From Draconibacterium orientale (GTDB taxonomy: Bacteria; Bacteroidota; Bacteroidia; Bacteroidales; Prolixibacteraceae): a DNA stretch of 64,000 bases. Of this stretch, positions 5,024 through 64,000 are shown one piece after another. The position numbers and the translations under genes were made by a program. The notes below the pieces were generated by a model that saw only the letters and a list, made by a program, of their open reading frames with translations, was not told the DNA's origin and did not search any database. How positions within the stretch are numbered: position 1 is the first letter of the stretch; every line of letters starts with the position of its first letter. The stretch is taken from NCBI RefSeq assembly GCF_000626635.1, contig NZ_CP007451.1:186001-250000 (forward strand), in the 5' to 3' direction.

Positions 5024-6607
5024 ATGAAAAAAATATTTAGAAATATTGGAATCTTGTTGGGCATTGTTGCTTTATTCGCAATAAACGCCTGCGAAGATGA
5101 TATCACTCCGGTTATTGAAGAACTGGAATTCGACAGGGTATTTACGCCCCTGGAGCTGGAAGCTAAAATCAGCAACCAAACGGTAGTATCCTTAAGCTGG
5201 GGATTCAACAAAAAAGTACAAACGTATGAACTGGAAATCAGCGACGACAGCTTATCGTTTGCCAATATTATTCATACCGCAACGGTTGGCCCCGACGATC
5301 TGCCTTACGTTTACGAATTGCCAGCCGGTAACTCGCAATACTCGGCACGTGTAAAAGGGATGAACGACAGTATTGCCGACTCAAAATGGGCAGAACTGGC
5401 ATTTAAATCATTGCCCGAGAATATTTTTAATAAGTATGACGTAGCCATGACCGGGCTGAACAGCATCGATGTTAGCTGGACTCCCGGAAAAGCAGTTACT
5501 GCGTTAAGCTTTGTTTCAAGCGAAGGTGAAATTACCTATGATATCTCTGCTGATGAGAAAACTGCCGGAATGAAATCGATCACCGATCTGCCAAATGGCG
5601 AATATGTGATCACGATCCTGAATGGCAACAAAGGTCGCGGAGTACAGGATTACATCATGGAAGGCGATGTATTTGTTGATGCCGGCGAAGATCTGGCTGC
5701 AGCAATCAGCGGTGCCGAATCGGGCGATGTGCTTATTCTGGCTGCCGGGGCACAATTTGGTTTCGAAGGCGATATGATGCTGGAAAGAGCCATAAAAATT
5801 AAAGGACTCGATGGTGATCTTCCGGTAATTTATGCCACAAGCGGCGACCGTATGTTTTACATTGGAGCAAGCATTCTCCCAACCGAAGAAATTGTTTTCG
5901 AGAACCTGAATATGAGCGGTTACACGAATATGGACGCTTCGCAAGGGCAAATCCGTGGTGTTTTTGATATGGAAAGCGAAGCCTGTAACATTGGCGCCGT
6001 TAAATTCATTGGTTGTAAAATGTACTACATGGGCCGCCAGATTATGCGTCTGCGTGGTGGTTCAGACCAAACCATTGGCGAATTCCTGGTTGACGACTGT
6101 ATCATTCACAACCTGGGTAAAAGCAGTGGTAGTTATGGCGTTTTCTGCGCTACCGAAACCAATACAAATGCAACTGTTGTAAAAATTACCAACTCAACCA
6201 TCGACAGTTTAAAATGCCATTTCATCCGCTACGACGATCCTGTGGCATGCGAAAGTATTATTGTTGAAAACTGTACATTCAACAAAACACCGTTTAGCTC
6301 GGGCCGTTATTTAATGGATATCCGAAATGCTGTTATCACAAGCGGCGTTCAGGTTACGAACTGTATTTTCGGCACAACTTCTTATGGCGACGAACCATCA
6401 ATCACTGGTATTCGTGCACCCGAAGATGTGGTGGTAACCATTACCAATTCATATGCAACCACCGACTTTGTAAACTCCGACTATTCAATTGTTGATCAGT
6501 TGACTTCGCTGGGTGTTACTTACGACGGTTTGTGGGAAGATCCTGACAATGGCGATTTCTCGTTCGCTTTCGATGCTGTTGACGCAGGCGACCCACGATG
6601 GAAATAA
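5024..6607 (+). CDS. Surface lipoprotein with Fn3-like N-terminus and DUF4957/DUF5123-type beta-helix
   Basis: Probably an accessory surface glycan-binding protein of the pectin SusCD complex. A lipoprotein signal peptide ends at lipobox INAC, followed by an acidic EDD stretch typical of surface-exported Bacteroidota lipoproteins. Residues of about 45-210 look like two fibronectin type III-like modules (VVSLSWGFNKKVQTYELEIS; SIDVSWTPGKAV). The rest has repeated short strands with N-C-T/N-S-T turns (IIVENCTFN, VKITNSTIDS) like a right-handed beta-helix, matching the DUF4957/DUF5123 proteins common in pectin loci. I see no lyase catalytic motif, so binding is more likely than catalysis. It is the third gene of the SusCD operon. 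Domain names are recalled from family resemblance, not searched. Confidence 0.8.
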   Translation: MKKIFRNIGILLGIVALFAINACEDDITPVIEELEFDRVFTPLELEAKISNQTVVSLSWGFNKKVQTYELEISDDSLSFANIIHTATVGPDDLPYVYELPAGNSQYSARVKGMNDSIADSKWAELAFKSLPENIFNKYDVAMTGLNSIDVSWTPGKAVTALSFVSSEGEITYDISADEKTAGMKSITDLPNGEYVITILNGNKGRGVQDYIMEGDVFVDAGEDLAAAISGAESGDVLILAAGAQFGFEGDMMLERAIKIKGLDGDLPVIYATSGDRMFYIGASILPTEEIVFENLNMSGYTNMDASQGQIRGVFDMESEACNIGAVKFIGCKMYYMGRQIMRLRGGSDQTIGEFLVDDCIIHNLGKSSGSYGVFCATETNTNATVVKITNSTIDSLKCHFIRYDDPVACESIIVENCTFNKTPFSSGRYLMDIRNAVITSGVQVTNCIFGTTSYGDEPSITGIRAPEDVVVTITNSYATTDFVNSDYSIVDQLTSLGVTYDGLWEDPDNGDFSFAFDAVDAGDPRWK

Positions 6608-6718: not shown

Positions 6719-8101
6719 ATGAAAGTACAGGTAAGCATAATTCTGATTCTCCTTTTTCAAACGGTTTTCGGGCAACAGCAAATCGCCTTTCCGGGGGCTG
6801 AAGGAGGTGGAAAATACACAACCGGAGGTCGCGGTGGCAAGATTATTTTTGTTGATAACCTGAATAATAAAGGCAACGGAAGTTTTAGAAAAGCCATTGA
6901 GGCAGAAGGACCGCGTACCATTATTTTCAGAGTATCAGGAACCATTGAACTGGAGAAAACCATTCACATAAAAAACGGCGATCTTACCATTGCCGGGCAA
7001 ACCGCTCCGGGAGATGGAATTTGCCTGAAAAATTACGGAGTACGCGTTGACGCCGACAATGTTATTATACGCTACCTGCGTGTACGCCCCGGCGACAATG
7101 CACACGAGGAAATGGATGCCATTACCGGAATGCGAAATAAAAATATTATAATAGACCATTGCAGTTTTAGCTGGGCCAACGACGAAGTAGCTTCGTTTTA
7201 CGACAACGAAAATTTCACACTGCAATGGTGTATTATCAGCGAAAGTTTTAACCTTTCCGATCATCACAAAGGAGCACACGGTTATGGCGGTATCTGGGGC
7301 GGAAAAAATGCCAGTTTTCATCACAACCTTATTTCCGATCATGTGAGCCGGAATCCGCGGCTACAAGGATCGCGCTACACCAACAATCCGGAATTTGAAA
7401 AAGCCGATTTCAGAAATAACGTAATTTACAACTGGGGAAACAACAGCATTTATGGTGGCGAAGAAGGCCATTACAACCTGGTGAATAATTATTACAAACC
7501 CGGTCCGGCAACAAAAAAAGATGTGCGCGACCGCATCCTAAACCTCACACAAAGTTTTTTCAGCGAAAGCAGAAATACCGACACACTCCGCGCAGGTTGG
7601 TTTTACCTTGCCGGAAATATAATTGAAGGAAATAAAGAAATCTCAAAAAATAACTGGGATGGCGGTGTGCAGGTAAAACACCTCACACAGGAAATGATCG
7701 ATCAATCGCGGCTCACCAGTCCGGTTGAACATACTGCCATAAAAACTGATGACGCAAAAAAAGCGTTCAAAAAAGTACTGCGCGATGCCGGTGCCAGTTT
7801 TCAGCGCGACGCCGTTGACAAACGCATAATTCGCGAAGCCAACACCGGAAAAGAAAGCGTCGGCAAACAATTCAGAGATGGCGGAAAAGGAATCATCGAC
7901 AGCCAGTCCGATGTGGGAGGCTGGCCGCTTTTACGCTCCACTCCTCCTCCACCCGATGCCGACAACGACGGAATGCCCGATGAGTGGGAAAAACAAAACG
8001 GGCTGAATCCGGAACAAGTGGATAACAACGATTACAAGCTCAATAAAGAATATACCAACATTGAAGTTTACCTGAACTCGATTGTAGCCCAAAAGAAATA
8101 A
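6719..8101 (+). CDS. Pectate lyase, polysaccharide lyase family 1
   Basis: Cleaves polygalacturonate by beta-elimination, leaving unsaturated ends for the GH105 enzymes of the locus. I chose the ATG at 6719, not the in-frame ATG at 6686, because it directly begins a clean signal peptide (MKVQVSIILILLFQTVFGQ) and 6686 sits in a hairpin loop; this gives 460 residues. Family marks are the N-terminal AFPGAEGGGKYTTGGRGG, the IDH motif in IIIDHCSFSW, HHNLISDH, and the catalytic-arginine motif SRNPR. The C-terminus has a calcium-binding DADNDGMPDEWE segment often seen after PL1 and related enzymes. A second PL1 lies at 14078. Next gene begins 1 bp after the stop, so it is in an operon. Confidence 0.92.
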   Translation: MKVQVSIILILLFQTVFGQQQIAFPGAEGGGKYTTGGRGGKIIFVDNLNNKGNGSFRKAIEAEGPRTIIFRVSGTIELEKTIHIKNGDLTIAGQTAPGDGICLKNYGVRVDADNVIIRYLRVRPGDNAHEEMDAITGMRNKNIIIDHCSFSWANDEVASFYDNENFTLQWCIISESFNLSDHHKGAHGYGGIWGGKNASFHHNLISDHVSRNPRLQGSRYTNNPEFEKADFRNNVIYNWGNNSIYGGEEGHYNLVNNYYKPGPATKKDVRDRILNLTQSFFSESRNTDTLRAGWFYLAGNIIEGNKEISKNNWDGGVQVKHLTQEMIDQSRLTSPVEHTAIKTDDAKKAFKKVLRDAGASFQRDAVDKRIIREANTGKESVGKQFRDGGKGIIDSQSDVGGWPLLRSTPPPPDADNDGMPDEWEKQNGLNPEQVDNNDYKLNKEYTNIEVYLNSIVAQKK

Positions 8102-35292: not shown

Positions 35293-36045
35293 TTGACAGC
35301 GACTAAACCTTTCAATTCAGCAGAGTTTATGAATCATATATCACTCGATTGTGTGATATTTGGTTTTAACAACAACGAGCTTAAAGTTTTGCTTTTGCAT
35401 TTAAAATATTCGAAAGAATATACACTTCCCGGAGGATTTTTGAAACACGATGAAACGTTGGAGCAGGCTGCACAACGCATAGTTAAAGAGCGCACCGGAC
35501 TAAACAATCTTTTTCTGAAGCAATTTAAGGCATTTAGCGATCCCGACAGATCAAAATCGAATAAAGCGATATTCGATGCCGACATGGCCGGTACAAAACC
35601 CGACATGACTTTTTTCGGTAAACGTTTTATCTCTGTAGGTTTTTATGCTTTGGTTGACTTTCGGAAAGTAAAACCCACACCTGATCTTTTTTCCGACCGC
35701 TGTGACTGGGTTTCTTTAACTGCCGATGTTACGATGCTGCTCGACCATAAACAAATTATTCAGGAAGCCATCAGTACCTTGCGTTTACAGCTTAACCAGC
35801 AGCCCATTGGCTTAAAATTGCTGCCTCATAAATTTACCATGCCCGAACTTCAGACTCTCTATGAAACCATTCTTGGTCGCGACCTTGACCGCCGTAACTT
35901 TCAGCGAAAAATATTGAACTACAATATTCTGGATAAGCTAAGAGAGCGAAAAACCGGCGGTGCGCACAAGTCGCCCTACTTTTATTCGTTTAATGTTGAA
36001 CGCTACAAAAAAGCACTTGAAGAAGGTTTAAGTGGAATCTGGTAA
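35293..36045 (+). CDS. NUDIX-domain transcriptional regulator, NrtR/AraR-like
   Basis: Probable repressor or activator of sugar genes. The N-terminal NUDIX fold (ISLDCVIFGFNNNELKVLLL) is followed by a winged helix (FTMPELQTLYETILGRDLDRRNFQRK would be split as recognition part DRRNFQRKIL). The NUDIX box G-x5-E-x7-R-x-x-x-E-x-x-G keeps the frame, but the second Glu is Ile and the third is Arg (RIVKERTGL), so hydrolase activity is probably lost. Start TTG 35293 has AAGGA close upstream and gives the usual N-terminal length; ATG 35329 is the alternative. In Bacteroides a protein of this type is the arabinose regulator AraR. The effector here is unknown. Confidence 0.85.
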   Translation: MTATKPFNSAEFMNHISLDCVIFGFNNNELKVLLLHLKYSKEYTLPGGFLKHDETLEQAAQRIVKERTGLNNLFLKQFKAFSDPDRSKSNKAIFDADMAGTKPDMTFFGKRFISVGFYALVDFRKVKPTPDLFSDRCDWVSLTADVTMLLDHKQIIQEAISTLRLQLNQQPIGLKLLPHKFTMPELQTLYETILGRDLDRRNFQRKILNYNILDKLRERKTGGAHKSPYFYSFNVERYKKALEEGLSGIW

Positions 36046-36079
36046 CAATAAAAAACAACTAATCCACTAATTAACAGCA

Positions 36080-36297
36080 CCCTGCTAAGCATTTACCCAT
36101 CCTGCAGCCCTTTGAGGCGTCCTGCACACTGAAATACCTCCCTGCCATATGTTGATGCTTTCCTGCTAAGCAGAATCACAAAAATGCCTGCAGGATTTGA
36201 AAAAAATGATGCAGGACGGAGCAAACCCCTGCAGGATTGCAAAAAAACCAGCAGGAGGATGTAGAACTATTGCAGGACGGGAAATTAATGCGCAGGA
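36080..36297. repeat. Phased array of TCCTGC motifs, 20-21 bp apart, orientation reversed at the centre
   Basis: Convergent gap 36046-36315. CCTGC occurs at 36081, 36101, 36121, 36141 and 36162 (steps 20, 20, 20, 21). After a centre with the palindrome CCTGCAGG (36187-36194), GCAGGA occurs at 36190, 36211, 36231, 36251, 36272 and 36292 (steps 21, 20, 20, 21, 20). The 14-15 bases between motifs are unrelated from unit to unit, so this is not a simple tandem duplication, and the two halves pair only through the motifs. Both flanking genes end here. It is too short in repeat and too variable to be a CRISPR. I do not recognise it as a known element. Confidence 0.85.
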
Positions 36298-36315
36298 TGA
36301 GCGTAACTACAACTG

Positions 36316-37518
36316 TTAGGATTTAATCCGCAAGGCCCAATTATACAGAATATTTCCGGAAAGGGTACAGAAAAAAAGTACCAGTCCGAAGGGAATAAGA
36401 TCGCCGGTATGAAACAGGGCCATTATACTTCCGATTAAGGCACTAATGGCAAAACGGGCAATTCCGATGGTAGCATTTGCCGATCCTGCCACTTCAGGAT
36501 TGTGGTTCAAAATGGTGGCTGTTCCGTTCCCGAAAACCAAACCCAAACTTCCAACATACAATACAATTGATGCAAATACCGACCACAATTGCGGCTCCGG
36601 CATCAACACCGAAATGGCCAGTGTTATGCCCGAAATCAGCTGCAACAATAATCCGTAGCGTAAAATCTTTTCTGCATCGTGTTTCTTTAAAAGAATGGTA
36701 TTTAAAAACGACAACATGATGTTCAGAACAATATTTGCACTAAAAAACAACGGAAAGCGCATTTGGGATACACCAAAATACTTGATGTAGATAAACGAAG
36801 CTGCTGTAATAAAAACATATAATCCCGACATGGGCAAACTAATGGCAAACAGCAAAATTGTACTTTGTTTATTCGAGAAAAATACCCGGTATTTTTCCAA
36901 CAGCTGCCGGCCTGTAATTTTACGGGTAATCAGTTCCGGCGCCCGTGATTCGGGAATAAGCAACCACATGGACAAAAACAACAGAATAGCAAATGCCAGT
37001 AAAAACCAGAAGATACTCACCCAACCAAACCAGTGAATTAATGCGGCGCCCATAACCGGAGCAAACAACGGAGCCAGCATAATAATCATACTAATAATGG
37101 TAACAAAGCGAGCTACCTGTTTTCCGCTGTACCAATCGCGAATGAACACATTACCCGTAACCGTTGCAAAACCTCCGCCAAAAGCCTGAAGCACACGCAA
37201 CAACAGCACGTATTCAATTTTAGTGCAGGTAGTTATAAGTAACGAGGCCAAGCCGTAAAGCGCAATTCCGGTGAGTGCAATTGTTTTTCGCCCAAAGGCA
37301 TCAGACAAGGGACCGCCGAAAAAATTACCAAAAGCAAATCCCAGAAAGTACAACGTAATGGTCAACTCGGCTACGTTTAGCTTTACGCCAAAAAACTCAG
37401 CAATATCGGGTAAGGCAGCTATATAGGTATCAATTGCAAATGGCGACATAGCCACCATGGCAGCCATAACCATTGTGAATACGGGAATAAAGAATTTGCC
37501 TGAACGGTTTAAACTCAT
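36316..37518 (-). CDS. MFS transporter, Bcr/CflA drug-exporter family
   Basis: Inner-membrane transporter with 12 predicted helices. The start region FAIDTYIAALPDIAEFFGV is typical of Bcr/CflA, as is the loop after helix 2-3 GGPLSDAFGRKTIAL (MFS motif A) and LLRVLQAFGGGFATVTGNVFIRDWY (motif of this family around helices 4). 400 residues is normal. The family exports drugs such as bicyclomycin or sulfonamides in proteobacteria; a role in sugar efflux is possible but not supported. It ends in the phased repeat gap and is not clearly part of the fuc operon, from which it is separated by 376 bp. Confidence 0.9.
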   Translation of the reverse strand: MSLNRSGKFFIPVFTMVMAAMVAMSPFAIDTYIAALPDIAEFFGVKLNVAELTITLYFLGFAFGNFFGGPLSDAFGRKTIALTGIALYGLASLLITTCTKIEYVLLLRVLQAFGGGFATVTGNVFIRDWYSGKQVARFVTIISMIIMLAPLFAPVMGAALIHWFGWVSIFWFLLAFAILLFLSMWLLIPESRAPELITRKITGRQLLEKYRVFFSNKQSTILLFAISLPMSGLYVFITAASFIYIKYFGVSQMRFPLFFSANIVLNIMLSFLNTILLKKHDAEKILRYGLLLQLISGITLAISVLMPEPQLWSVFASIVLYVGSLGLVFGNGTATILNHNPEVAGSANATIGIARFAISALIGSIMALFHTGDLIPFGLVLFFCTLSGNILYNWALRIKS

Positions 37519-60578: not shown

Positions 60579-61853
60579 CTATAGTTTATCGCCGTTTTCC
60601 AGTAAATAGGCTTCGGCTTCCACATTCCACAATCCCATATACTTTTTGCATAGCTTATCCAGCCCAGCATACACCGGATTTTCTTTTCCTTTCTCTTCAA
60701 ATTCAGCAATTGCTGTAAGCGGAAAATCAAAATGCGTGTAAATCAACTTCTTACCTCCCGGAATATTTGGCAGATTCAAAGTAGCTTCCGGCACGGCATT
60801 TAAACCCCCGATATGGGTGACCAAACCTGCCGGATCCAGTCCTGCGGTCATAATTTCCAGCGCTTCTTTCATATCATCAGTGTTACCTCCCGATGTTCCA
60901 ACAATATGGGTATAGGCGTAATGTACGTTATAAAAATTCATTTTTGCAGTGAATTCGGTGTTCGATGGGCCGGCAAAAAAGTTCAGACAACCATCGAAAC
61001 CAAGAATGGCATCGCCCTGCTCTACCACCGGAGCCACCGGAGCAAAAACAAAAACATCGTCGTAACCTGTATCGCCGGTCAAATCTTTCAATCCTGCAAC
61101 AGGATCAGCCATTTCTGCTGTATTGATGTATTTCAACTCAATACCACGCTCTTTGGCAAACTCAACAGTATAAAGTTCTGCAGCACGGTCCAGTCTTGTC
61201 TGATCGATATCGGTAACCACCAGCAGCGATGGTTTCCGGTCCTCGCGGCGCAAAACGTAATTGATTGCTGCCAACCCCATTGGACCAACACCGGCAAGAA
61301 TGGCCATTTTCCCACCTTCAACAATTTCCATTTTGTGCACATAGCTTCCGGCAGTGGTGTGGTAATTGGCATGCATGGCCCCAATAACACAGCTTAAAGG
61401 CTCGGCCAGCGATGCCGGATAATAACCCGGTCCTTCGTATGCCAGCAAACAATCCTGCACGAGTACATCTTTTGGAATGATCACGTAAGTGGCATCGCCG
61501 CCAATGTATTTGTACGAATAACCAGGAGCGCTTAAAACGCCCACCGGACCTTCTTCGTAATAAATGGCCGGCTGGATCGAGAATTTCTGCCCGGCCGTAA
61601 ATTTACTTTGCCAGTTGGCCCCTACTTCAACAATCTCACCGGCAAACTCATGACCGATTACAATCGGATTCTCAGCAATATCATCCGGAATACGTTTGTG
61701 ATCGCTGGCCTGGTTGGCTGCTTTGTAACTCGACATGCAAAGACTGTCGGTTACCACTTTTGCCAAAATCTCATCATCACTGATTTGTGGTAATTCAAAC
61801 TCCTCCACACGAAGGTCTTTTTTACCGTATAATCGAACTGCTTTTGTCTTCAT
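60579..61853 (-). CDS. Zinc-dependent medium-chain dehydrogenase, SorE-like
   Basis: Cytoplasmic NAD(P)-dependent oxidoreductase. It resembles the L-sorbose-1-phosphate reductase (SorE) group: KAVRLYGKKDLRVEEFELP, TDSLCMSSYKAANQ, NPIVIGHEFAGEIVEVGANW, AYEGPGYYPASLAEPLSCVIGA, the nucleotide-binding ILAGVGPMGLAAI and a VVTDID acidic residue after strand 2 that favours NAD. 424 residues, a little longer than usual MDR proteins. It follows the aldolase/short-chain dehydrogenase gene on the same strand (453-bp gap), so both may act on the same phosphorylated ketose or its product. The substrate is unknown; alternatives are other polyol or deoxysugar dehydrogenases. Confidence 0.82.
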   Translation of the reverse strand: MKTKAVRLYGKKDLRVEEFELPQISDDEILAKVVTDSLCMSSYKAANQASDHKRIPDDIAENPIVIGHEFAGEIVEVGANWQSKFTAGQKFSIQPAIYYEEGPVGVLSAPGYSYKYIGGDATYVIIPKDVLVQDCLLAYEGPGYYPASLAEPLSCVIGAMHANYHTTAGSYVHKMEIVEGGKMAILAGVGPMGLAAINYVLRREDRKPSLLVVTDIDQTRLDRAAELYTVEFAKERGIELKYINTAEMADPVAGLKDLTGDTGYDDVFVFAPVAPVVEQGDAILGFDGCLNFFAGPSNTEFTAKMNFYNVHYAYTHIVGTSGGNTDDMKEALEIMTAGLDPAGLVTHIGGLNAVPEATLNLPNIPGGKKLIYTHFDFPLTAIAEFEEKGKENPVYAGLDKLCKKYMGLWNVEAEAYLLENGDKL

Positions 61854-62035: not shown

Positions 62036-62258
62036 TCCTTGTTTTTCCATGGTTTCCTTAACATTCCTCATGCGCTCCTTACAGTTTCTCTTGGATTCCT
62101 TACCGGCCTTATGCCTTCCTTAACGTTGCTCATGAGTTCCTTAATGTTCCCCGTGTATTCCTTGTCGTTCCTCACGCGATCCTTACTGTTCCCCATCTAT
62201 TCCTTAACGTTACTTGTGCATATATTCTGGTTTCCCGCGCATTCCTTAAGGTTTCCCG
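62036..62258. repeat. Phased degenerate repeat array, TCCTT every ~21 bp with half-period echo
   Basis: Region 61854-62306 has no gene. TCCTT occurs at 62036, 62055, 62076, 62097, 62117, 62138, 62159, 62180, 62201 and 62243 (steps 19, 21, 21, 20, 21, 21, 21, 21, 42; the missing slot at 62222 is degenerate). A second pyrimidine motif (TCCTC, TCCCC, TTCTC, TTCCC) falls midway, at 62065, 62086, 62106, 62127, 62148, 62169, 62190, 62211, 62232 and 62253. So a T-C-C-like element recurs about every 10.4 bp. A rough consensus unit is TCCTTAACGTTCCTCATGNAT. Two in-phase relatives lie upstream (61932, 61953). I see no match to a known element; it is not a CRISPR. Confidence 0.85.
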
Positions 62259-62306: not shown

Positions 62307-64000
62307 CTAGTGCAACATCGACTGTCCGCCCGAAATTGGCAGCGCCTGTCCGGTTTCATTCTCCTGGTCGATCAGGTACAAAATTCCTTTCACCACGTCT
62401 TTTGGCGAACATCCTTTTCCAAGCGGTACCTGGTCTAAATAAAATTGCTTCACATCATCGATTGTTTTTGCACCCGGCACTTTTCCTGCATTCAGGTACT
62501 GAATGAACAAACCGTTTTCAGGATCGCTCCACAGCGGGCCTTCGTAAAAATTACCCGGACAAACCGAATTCACTTTAATTTTCGCGGGTGCCAGTTCCAG
62601 CGCAAACGACTGAGTAAGCCCGATTCCTCCGAATTTACCCCCGGCATAGGCAAAATTCTTCTTGCTTCCTTTTAAGCCCGATTTTGAGTTGATCTGAATG
62701 ATATCAGAATAGTAATCCGGCTTATAAGCATTTTGAAGTTTCAATATTTTGGAGGCTACTTTGGTGCAGTAGAAATAAGCGTTGTAGTTTATTTTGGTCA
62801 CAAACTCGAAATTCTCGGGAGTCATTTCCTCCAAACCACCGGCCCGCAACACGCCAGCGTTACTAACAAATACATCAAGCCCACCAAAAGTAGCAACCGT
62901 TTCCTTCATTAAATTAGCCAGGCTATCCATGTCGGCCACATTGGTTTTTACAAAAATCGCACTGTTATTGCCTTTCATGGCAGCCAGTTCGGCAGCCGTT
63001 TTCTGCCCCACTTCTTCGTTAATATCGGCCACAACAATGTTAGCCCCTTCTTCTTTTAGGTGGCGGGCAATACCTTCGCCAAATCCCATGGCTGCGCCTG
63101 TAACAATAATGGTTTTATTCTGAACGCGGCCAACAGATGTTCCGGCAGCAATTTTGCGGCGGTAATTTTCTACCTCCCAGGTATCGATAAAGGCAATCTG
63201 TTCTAGTGTCATAAAATGCTGACCTCCGAACGATTCTGAATATGCGCTGATTTTCATTGCATCCTCATATACATCCAGAATGGTGTCGCACTGTGCCGCA
63301 TGATCGCCAACAGCCAACAAACCAATTCCTTTCAGCAAAATTACTTTTGGCACAAATCCGTTTACTGAAATAAAAGCTGCAATTTTTTCTTTAGCCTCTT
63401 TCAACAAGTCTTCAACGTTTTCGGTATTTTCAACAAATACGTATTTTGATTTGCAATAAACGATCAGATCCGGAGTAAATGGCTTGGCCACTTTTTCAAA
63501 AGCCGTTGCATCTTTGGCGAATTGTGCGATTACTGCATTGTTCCGAAGCTTCAGCGTTTTAATTTCCTCTTCAGAAACCATCATTCGGATAGCAGGAATA
63601 AACTCCGCAATGTCATCGCGAATTGGAAGTGCTTCTTCCAACAATTCTACTTTTAATCCACTGTTCAGTTTAGCAAATACATCACTGTAAATCGTTCCAA
63701 TTTCATCAACAGAATCGGCTGCTACAAAAATTCCGTGATTTTGTAAAAAGATGATTTGGGCAGCTTTGCCATTATCCGCTTTGAATTTGGTTAGTTGCTT
63801 TTCAACCTCTTTAAACAACACGTACCCCGGATCGATGTACGAAATATAAACCACCTGGTCGCCAAACAATTCTTCGAGGTATTTTTCAACCTCGTTGCCA
63901 CACATCAGTCCGTTTACTTTTGTCGGGTGCAGGTGCACCACGTAAGCATAATCAATGGCATCGTGCATGGATGTTTCCACCGATGGGCGACGATCTTTTG
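62307..64000 (-). CDS. Bifunctional class II aldolase / short-chain dehydrogenase (5' end outside window)
   Basis: Fusion of a class II aldolase-like domain with an SDR. The frame is open to the last base of the window (upstream residues K-D-R-R-P-S-V-E-T), so about 130 N-terminal residues are missing from a usual total near 700. The aldolase part shows RPSVETSMHDAIDYAYVVHLHP and LQNHGIFVAADS (zinc histidines). The SDR part from about 290 has TGAAMGFGEGIA (nucleotide-binding), VSNAGVLRAGGL, INSKSGLKGSKKNFAYAGGK (S-Y-K catalytic; here Tyr in FAYAGGK) and SVCPGNF. Related fusions act on rhamnulose 1-phosphate, with the SDR acting on lactaldehyde; whether that holds here is unknown. Confidence 0.88.
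   Translation of the reverse strand, partial: KDRRPSVETSMHDAIDYAYVVHLHPTKVNGLMCGNEVEKYLEELFGDQVVYISYIDPGYVLFKEVEKQLTKFKADNGKAAQIIFLQNHGIFVAADSVDEIGTIYSDVFAKLNSGLKVELLEEALPIRDDIAEFIPAIRMMVSEEEIKTLKLRNNAVIAQFAKDATAFEKVAKPFTPDLIVYCKSKYVFVENTENVEDLLKEAKEKIAAFISVNGFVPKVILLKGIGLLAVGDHAAQCDTILDVYEDAMKISAYSESFGGQHFMTLEQIAFIDTWEVENYRRKIAAGTSVGRVQNKTIIVTGAAMGFGEGIARHLKEEGANIVVADINEEVGQKTAAELAAMKGNNSAIFVKTNVADMDSLANLMKETVATFGGLDVFVSNAGVLRAGGLEEMTPENFEFVTKINYNAYFYCTKVASKILKLQNAYKPDYYSDIIQINSKSGLKGSKKNFAYAGGKFGGIGLTQSFALELAPAKIKVNSVCPGNFYEGPLWSDPENGLFIQYLNAGKVPGAKTIDDVKQFYLDQVPLGKGCSPKDVVKGILYLIDQENETGQALPISGGQSMLH

Follow-up and report, generated by a model that had tools for sequence, protein, structure and literature searches.

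A helically phased motif array between two convergent genes and a linked family of helical proteins whose C-terminal tails predict the motif

Helically phased sites lying beside the gene for their binding protein are found in iteron/rep arrays and in the parC/ParR, tubC/TubR, and parS/ParB systems, and iteron and partition arrays fall into specificity groups that do not cross-react. In contact-dependent inhibition tips and restriction specificity genes, a conserved core is joined to a variable C-terminal module that is swapped together with its partner. REPINs, for their part, are palindromic in design. The cited parts of two RAYT/REPIN reports describe a gene that has a similar repeat next to it, with further, non-autonomous copies of the repeat spread elsewhere in the genome (PMC3116915, PMC3733652), and TIGR-Tas systems, in the part of their description cited here, combine two alternating 8- to 12-nt repeats and variable 9-nt spacers with a Nop domain and with guide RNAs of 36 nt (PMC12045711). 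Finally, the abstract on the TAACTGA repeats depicts short-motif, intergenic repeats of Beggiatoaceae, Cyanobacteria, and some Bacteroidetes, with the binding protein unknown; they are direct heptamers, located in the main genome mostly just upstream of start codons (PMC4679880).

The arrays described here are iteron-, operator-, or centromere-like in design and REP-like in spread, and by protein domain their class belongs to none of the known systems tested; no description of such a system was found in the open-licence literature. We read the array in the window (the whole 64-kb stretch of DNA analyzed), with a probability of about 0.7, as a solo array for protein binding that belongs to a system of two parts, namely, a helical protein and an array of a motif private to it. 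The locus is organized as follows.

35293..36045, plus strand: flanking gene for a NUDIX/NrtR-type regulator, outside the system
36046..36315, no strand assigned: entire insert separating the convergent stop codons, missing from nine relatives
36046..36080, plus strand: leader, read by eye, 35 nt only
36081..36166, plus strand: forward arm of five CCTGC sites, from the sequence scan
36162..36174, no strand assigned: dyad center CCTGC-TAA-GCAGa, from the center scan
36190..36296, minus strand: reverse arm of six GCAGG sites, from the sequence scan
36316..37518, minus strand: flanking gene for an MFS transporter, outside the system

The preliminary description had counted eleven motifs 20 or 21 bp apart, five pointing one way and six the other, and all positions were found again: CCTGC starts at 36081, 36101, 36121, 36141, and 36162 (steps of 20, 20, 20, and 21), and GCAGG starts at 36190, 36211, 36231, 36251, 36272, and 36292 (steps of 21, 20, 20, 21, and 20). 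The central palindrome that it mentioned stands in part: a dyad exists at 36162 to 36174, but the conspicuous CCTGCAGG at 36187 is out of phase. Since the dyad reads CCTGC-TAA-GCAGa, a decayed 12th site falls at 36170, where it forms the first reverse site with one mismatch; the forward and reverse sites are offset by 8 nt, a distance that the other arrays share.

Both comparisons proposed with that description, one with shuffled sequence and one with the rest of the genome, bore it out. The 20/21-step chains in the gap are five and six units long, and no comparable array arose by shuffling: the longest chain in 2,000 dinucleotide shuffles of the 270-bp gap was 1 (1,317 shuffles), 2 (681), or 3 (2), and shuffling the whole 64 kb 20 times likewise produced none longer than 3. 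A three-copy CCTGC pattern gave 11 + 15 matches in the whole-genome search, and its reversed form, used as a control, gave 0 + 1. Coding repeats were rejected, because steps of 20 and 21 break the reading frame; both flanking genes stop outside the array.

The window array is gene-less, i.e., solo. In the source genome (G000; 5,132,075 bp, one contig), the three-copy pattern locates four CCTGC arrays, at 222, 1983, 4073, and 4793 kb; all matches to this pattern fall within these four, and the two-copy pattern revealed no additional cluster. One of the four lies directly 3' of a gene of 247 aa (C1:1983015-1983752, or positions 7010 to 7753 of locus L017), and its relatives elsewhere are likewise followed by an array. 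In total, G000 has at least 13 arrays in four motif classes, and each of its three main-family genes comes with one linked array plus solo arrays of its own motif (linked + solo: CCTGC, 1 + 3; GCGAGG, 1 + 1; GTGAT, 1 + 4). The solo GCGAGG array (around 2657 to 2881 of L162) is found some 390 bp upstream of a gene that, by eye, resembles one for a type II topoisomerase B subunit.

We sampled 71 non-redundant open frames of this family, 51 of them full length. A 3' array of at least five units, either a chain or an opposed pair of chains, follows 45 of the 51 full-length members, counting L092, which scored on a low-complexity word and whose ACTCG array was read by eye, whereas no member has a 5' array of at least five units (maximum, four). 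The six lacking a 3' chain of five include L130, where the contig stops, and L054, L057, L059, and L040, which have three to four units under strict matching. The base rate was taken from 180 other genes of at least 250 aa in loci that had themselves been chosen for their arrays, and the flanks with at least five units there were, by inspection, known arrays, a low-complexity word (L022), and the second array of the window. The family occurs in 23 of 37 genus genomes, and the three-copy CCTGC pattern was matched in 20 of the 37, some of these matches being single chance or coding hits (e.g., G010, G016, G017, and G023). Beyond the genus, relatives are known from 18 named loci, including ones in Sunxiuqinia, Mariniphaga, and Marivirga; the A3 protein profile matched none of 394 other class genomes at an E value of 0.001, and the strict center pattern matched none of 394 other genomes of the phylum. 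The genes beside the CCTGC loci differ from locus to locus among the loci listed.

The protein itself resembles little that has been described. Pfam returned no family for three members at an E value of 0.01 or for a further two at 0.1, the family matched no PHROG with a known function, and comparison of the sequence with the PDB gave one chance match (E = 0.85). An AlphaFold model is all helical (mean pLDDT, 89.8; pTM, 0.67), being least certain in the tail; no known DNA-binding fold was seen in it, and Foldseek found no match among PDB or viral models at an E value of 0.001 or lower, the best PDB match having an E value of 0.045. Searches of three proteins against the PADLOC defence families gave no hit, as did those of two family proteins for plasmid or phage hits, of viral contigs for a relative of the protein, and of plasmids for the array. 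Three main-family members score 18 to 23 bits against NCBIfam PQLLE (NF052641) and L117 scores 32.8, all under the curated cutoff of 80 bits; judged by these scores, the main family would be at most distantly related to PQLLE.

These results set the family apart from the systems introduced above. Its sites lie whole turns apart beside the gene for a putative binding protein, as iterons do, but no known replication, partition, or HTH/RHH domain, and hence none of a replication initiator, was found by Pfam, the two proteins searched gave no plasmid or phage hit, and the arrays are chromosomal, have two opposed arms, and occur as solo copies. Dispersed gene-less copies of a gene-linked repeat, as in RAYT/REPIN systems, are present in G000, but a search for the Y1 transposase domain found none in the members examined, and the repeat is an array of 5- to 7-bp motifs at two-turn steps whose motif follows a C-terminal tail. 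The swapping of a C-terminal module recalls contact-dependent inhibition and restriction specificity genes, with the difference that the partner here is a DNA array and not a gene. The two-turn phase, the dyad, and the linked gene are absent from what the TAACTGA abstract describes (PMC4679880).

The anatomy of the arrays was compared across 41 arrays of the CCTGC or CCTGT type with 409 units. The 409 steps were of 20 (243), 21 (155), 22 (9), or 19 (2) nt, with a mean of 20.4, which corresponds to 10.2 bp per turn. The order of the steps is conserved from the center outward, the first forward step being 21 in 35 of the 41 arrays and the second being 20 in 35 of them. A center with the 8-nt offset was returned for all 41, a count that is no independent proof because the scan demands a center and keeps the best candidate, and a few of these centers are doubtful (L040 and L046 among them). 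One helical turn past the motif there is a T-tract (58 to 81% T at positions 10 to 14 of 20-nt units), and T is also preferred just before the next motif.

The bases between motifs had initially been taken as not conserved, which holds insofar as motif columns vary less than spacers but misses the T-tract and the preferred T that the spacers carry. Motif columns differed by 7.2% and spacers by 27.5% between gene-linked arrays, and by 7.8% and 36.2%, respectively, between distant solo arrays, a comparison that somewhat favors the motif columns because the motif itself located them; between close solo arrays the difference was 6.7% versus 11.3% (P = 0.02), suggesting weak constraint. Several arrays carry odd outermost units, often TGCGGA or nearly so, with a different motif inside (L083, L084, L087, L094, L129, and L131); examples are TGCGGA-like units outside GTGAT or GGGAGAA arrays and CCTGT outside CCTGC in L023. 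The outer TGCGGA-like units may be what a block exchange left of an older array. Growth from the center outward, with the older motifs outermost, was seen by eye in several arrays and was rejected as a rule, L034 showing the opposite order. The L018 array is bordered at 6451 to 6530 and 6800 to 6878 by similar palindromic repeats (GCTAAGCGC... plus a GATGTCATC hairpin).

That such arrays are ordinary minisatellites grown by slippage is very improbable for the main family. Near-identical 21-nt arrays, one of them in an open frame, do occur upstream of distant relatives (L105, L118, L121, and L125), but adjacent spacers in the main family are only 0.42 to 0.45 identical, the strand flips at a fixed center, only motif and phase are kept, and the motif follows the protein tail. 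We also consider it improbable that the arrays are transcribed and work as RNA, either as phased stems or as guide-like RNAs in the manner of TIGR-Tas. Like TIGR-Tas loci as outlined in the cited part of their description, they have a single gene for a helical protein beside an array with a two-unit period near 40 nt (PMC12045711); the plus strand of the window array folds as RNA better than its shuffles do (z = -3.8), and arrays of the CCTGC/CCTGT group begin 6 to 30 nt past the stop codon and may be transcribed. The strand nevertheless flips at the array center, and complementarity between spacers of opposite units does not exceed that found for other units (0.415 versus 0.410; permutation P = 0.36), which argues against the phased stems that the preliminary description had offered as one option. 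Since the spacers share a T-tract, they are not guide-like, and each array holds to one 5-nt motif throughout, which pairing alone would not need, where TIGR-Tas alternates two repeats. A terminator lies between gene and array in two of the three genes scanned and none was found there in the third; no Rfam covariance model matched within the window at its gathering score, and no Nop domain was found by Pfam in five members, nor any PDB fold match below an E value of 0.04, a search that distant similarity could escape.

The motif covaries with the C-terminal end of the protein. We split the protein at a conserved GY near the end, the tail being the last 13 or so residues, and distinguished 13 motif classes, among them CCTGC, CCTGT, ACTCG, GGAAAG, ATCCG, GTAGGA, GTGATAA, TGCGGA, GGGAGAA, and GCGAG. 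With these classes assigned by eye and not blind, and the split of GCGAG made after the tails had been seen, the motif was called correctly from the nearest neighbor by tail in 42 of 44 cases, compared with 17 to 18 of 44 (owing to ties) for the nearest neighbor by core. The result held when neighbors of at least 0.8 core identity were excluded (tail, 40 of 41; core, 18) and when GCGAG was left unsplit (tail, 43 of 44; core, 23 of 44), and when tails were shuffled over rows, none of 200 shuffles reached the observed score (maximum, 14). Near-sister cores with differing tails have differing motifs (L081/L092, 98%; L095/L084, 96%; L134/L140, 94%; L137/L139, 93%; and L017/L074, 92%), whereas distant cores with like tails share one (L058/L092, core 60%, ACTCG; L053/L059, 59%, GGAAAG). 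Within the GCGAG group, D(Q/K)RK tails go with GCGAG-G in 45 of 51 units of four arrays and N(G/K)RR tails with GCGAG-T/C in 42 of 43 units of four arrays, the two kinds of protein being interleaved on the core tree. A strict tree test of independent C/T pairs found none against the association (P = 0.25 to 0.5), though it cannot be significant because only three pairs on well-supported branches were usable. Pairs of tail and motif such as HRKQ-CCTGC, NRKK-CCTGT, NSRKT-ACTCG, D-RK-GCGAGG, and N-RR-GCGAGY may form a readable peptide-to-DNA code.

Tail and array also change together. L139 and L137 represent one locus and are 93% identical over 4.8 kb, with 92 to 97% identity in the gene, mostly 50 to 70% in the tail and array, and 96 to 97% from 400 bp on; L134/L140 has the same pattern, with 84 to 91% in the flank beyond, whereas the same-motif pair L136/L140 retains 75 to 95% through most of the array. 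More generally, DNA similarity between different-motif pairs often ends 21 to 55 nt before the stop codon (it is lost 39 to 55 nt before it in L084/L085 and L084/L095, with a short regain some 300 bp beyond), and same-motif pairs are similar throughout the array (L094/L131, L129/L084, L126/L087, and L117/L140). Exceptions are L085/L087 and L083/L087, whose motifs differ and whose alignments continue beyond the stop codon. As read from these alignments, a block of tail plus array is replaced between conserved flanks at orthologous loci.

The window locus itself is a place where an array has come or gone. The preliminary description had named as a refutation the absence of any similar array in close relatives with the same gene order, and at this locus the array is indeed missing in 9 of the 10 other genomes in which both flanking genes were placed. 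The two stop codons are 1 to 15 bp apart in these nine (G009, G012, G030, G024, G002, G005, G007, G034, and G013), compared with 268 bp by the same count in G000, and G029 keeps a 100-bp remnant with outer units. Since other loci of these genomes, and of further ones, carry arrays built in the same way, this absence means insertion or loss and not that the array arose by chance. It is quite possible, if short of an even chance, that the arrays are selfish repeats, non-autonomous passengers of a gene that spreads or maintains them, and that the solo arrays have no host function. The insertion against an empty site fits such a history, as do the solo arrays L159 and L160, which are gene-less copies of the linked array of L131 at 82 to 84% similarity, the two near-identical gene-plus-array copies in G031 (the gene being broken in one of them), the scattered broken family genes, and the CCTGC solo arrays of genomes without a CCTGC-type gene: G005 has no family match, G004 has a fragment only, and the family genes of G009 and G034 have other motifs. 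As CCTGC arrays persist in these four genomes, a strict dependence on such a gene is unlikely. On the other hand, no transposase or nuclease domain was found in the family, no terminal repeats or target duplication were seen at the empty site, and motif constraint is evident in distant solo arrays.

Local autoregulation or a decoy function, in which the array would do no more than titrate or anchor the protein close to its gene, with the solo arrays as relics of lost genes, seems to us less likely than not. It would account for the nearly constant position of the array beside the gene and for L160, whose array adjoins a gene for a U32 peptidase, which in G030, G012, and G029 is the neighbor of a family gene, so that this solo array may be a leftover of gene loss. 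The window array, too, has a possible stop-codon trace on its left: TAA-CAGCAC-CCTGC at 36072 to 36085 resembles the TAA-CAGCAT-CCTGT (stop codon, 6 nt, first motif) of the gene-linked arrays L049 and L074, and to judge from this resemblance the leader is a possible trace of origin from a gene-linked copy. Solo arrays nevertheless hold the motif over long distances, one CCTGC array between a permease gene and a TPR gene being kept in nine genomes, and the main-family array sits 3' of the gene and not at its promoter.

We return to the two-part system, in which the window array would be a binding array without its gene. The same-face array for a sequence-specific protein suggested in the preliminary description gains strong support, at the level of sequence, from motif, phase, dyad, and the covariation of the tail; binding, assembly, and action in trans are what we infer beyond this. 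One part would be the helical protein of about 247 aa, from a family without a Pfam domain, and the other a private 5- to 7-bp motif that recurs at two-turn steps, mostly in two opposed arms around a palindromic center. The basic C-terminal tail of about 13 residues would read the motif in the major groove, assisted by the T/A-tract one turn off, and protomers would sit side by side on one face of the DNA, one per two turns, nucleating at the dyad and then assembling outward in both directions. Because tail and array adjoin and are exchanged together, specificity would change as a block; paralogues within one genome have different motifs. Solo arrays would derive from gene-linked ones, either as dispersed copies or as remnants, and could be acted on in trans by the protein whose specificity they match. 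Tentatively, and with the odds against it, we suggest as the likeliest role of the system that it bridges matching arrays into a nucleoprotein structure, from which control of its own locus and of its neighbors would follow; selfish spread and local control are serious rivals of bridging.

More broadly, we consider it an even bet that Bacteroidota harbor undescribed self-matching DNA-address systems, in which a scaffold carries an exchangeable reader, cassettes are swapped, several systems coexist and form networks in trans, and a wider superfamily behaves alike. If this is true, such systems would offer a compact code, found in nature in dozens of variants, that matches a short peptide tail to a 5- to 7-bp DNA word, a new kind of orthogonal DNA-binding module, and a testable case of a protein and its binding sites coevolving and being replaced as a block. 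They would also represent a chromosomal architecture of matching arrays with a function so far unnamed and give a function to a family whose annotation, if it has one, says no more than that the role is unknown.

Between two other genes of the window lies a second array.

60579-61853, minus strand: dehydrogenase gene beside the second array
62036..62247, minus strand: second array, TCCTT sites in one orientation, from the chain scan
62307-63980, minus strand: SDR-type gene beside the second array

Its ten sites (motif TCCTTA) start at 62036, 62055, 62076, 62097, 62117, 62138, 62159, 62180, 62201, and 62243, with steps of 19 to 21 and one of 42. On the minus strand the unit reads TAAGGA-N6-GRGAAC, and the same TAAGGA unit occurs 132 to 237 bp upstream of a PQLLE-family gene of the source genome (C1:4641048-4641677). 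Among 28 loci matching the PQLLE model at an E value of 0.001, all from genomes of the window's phylum and 6 of them over the cutoff, an upstream chain of 19- to 22-nt steps had at least five units in 12 and at least four in 18, whereas a chain of four was found downstream in none. This evidence is weaker than that for the main family because some of the upstream arrays are near-identical tandem repeats, namely, those of L105, L118, L121, and L125 noted above, and one lies in an open frame. The C-terminus of the distant relatives looks as if it were a general exchange site. Where a basic tail would be, L121, L124, L125, L105, and L115 have stretches that look, by eye, fibronectin type. In L101 and L108, the PQLLE-family gene is followed, again by eye, by a hairpin repeat and the frame of a putative REP-associated Y1 transposase.
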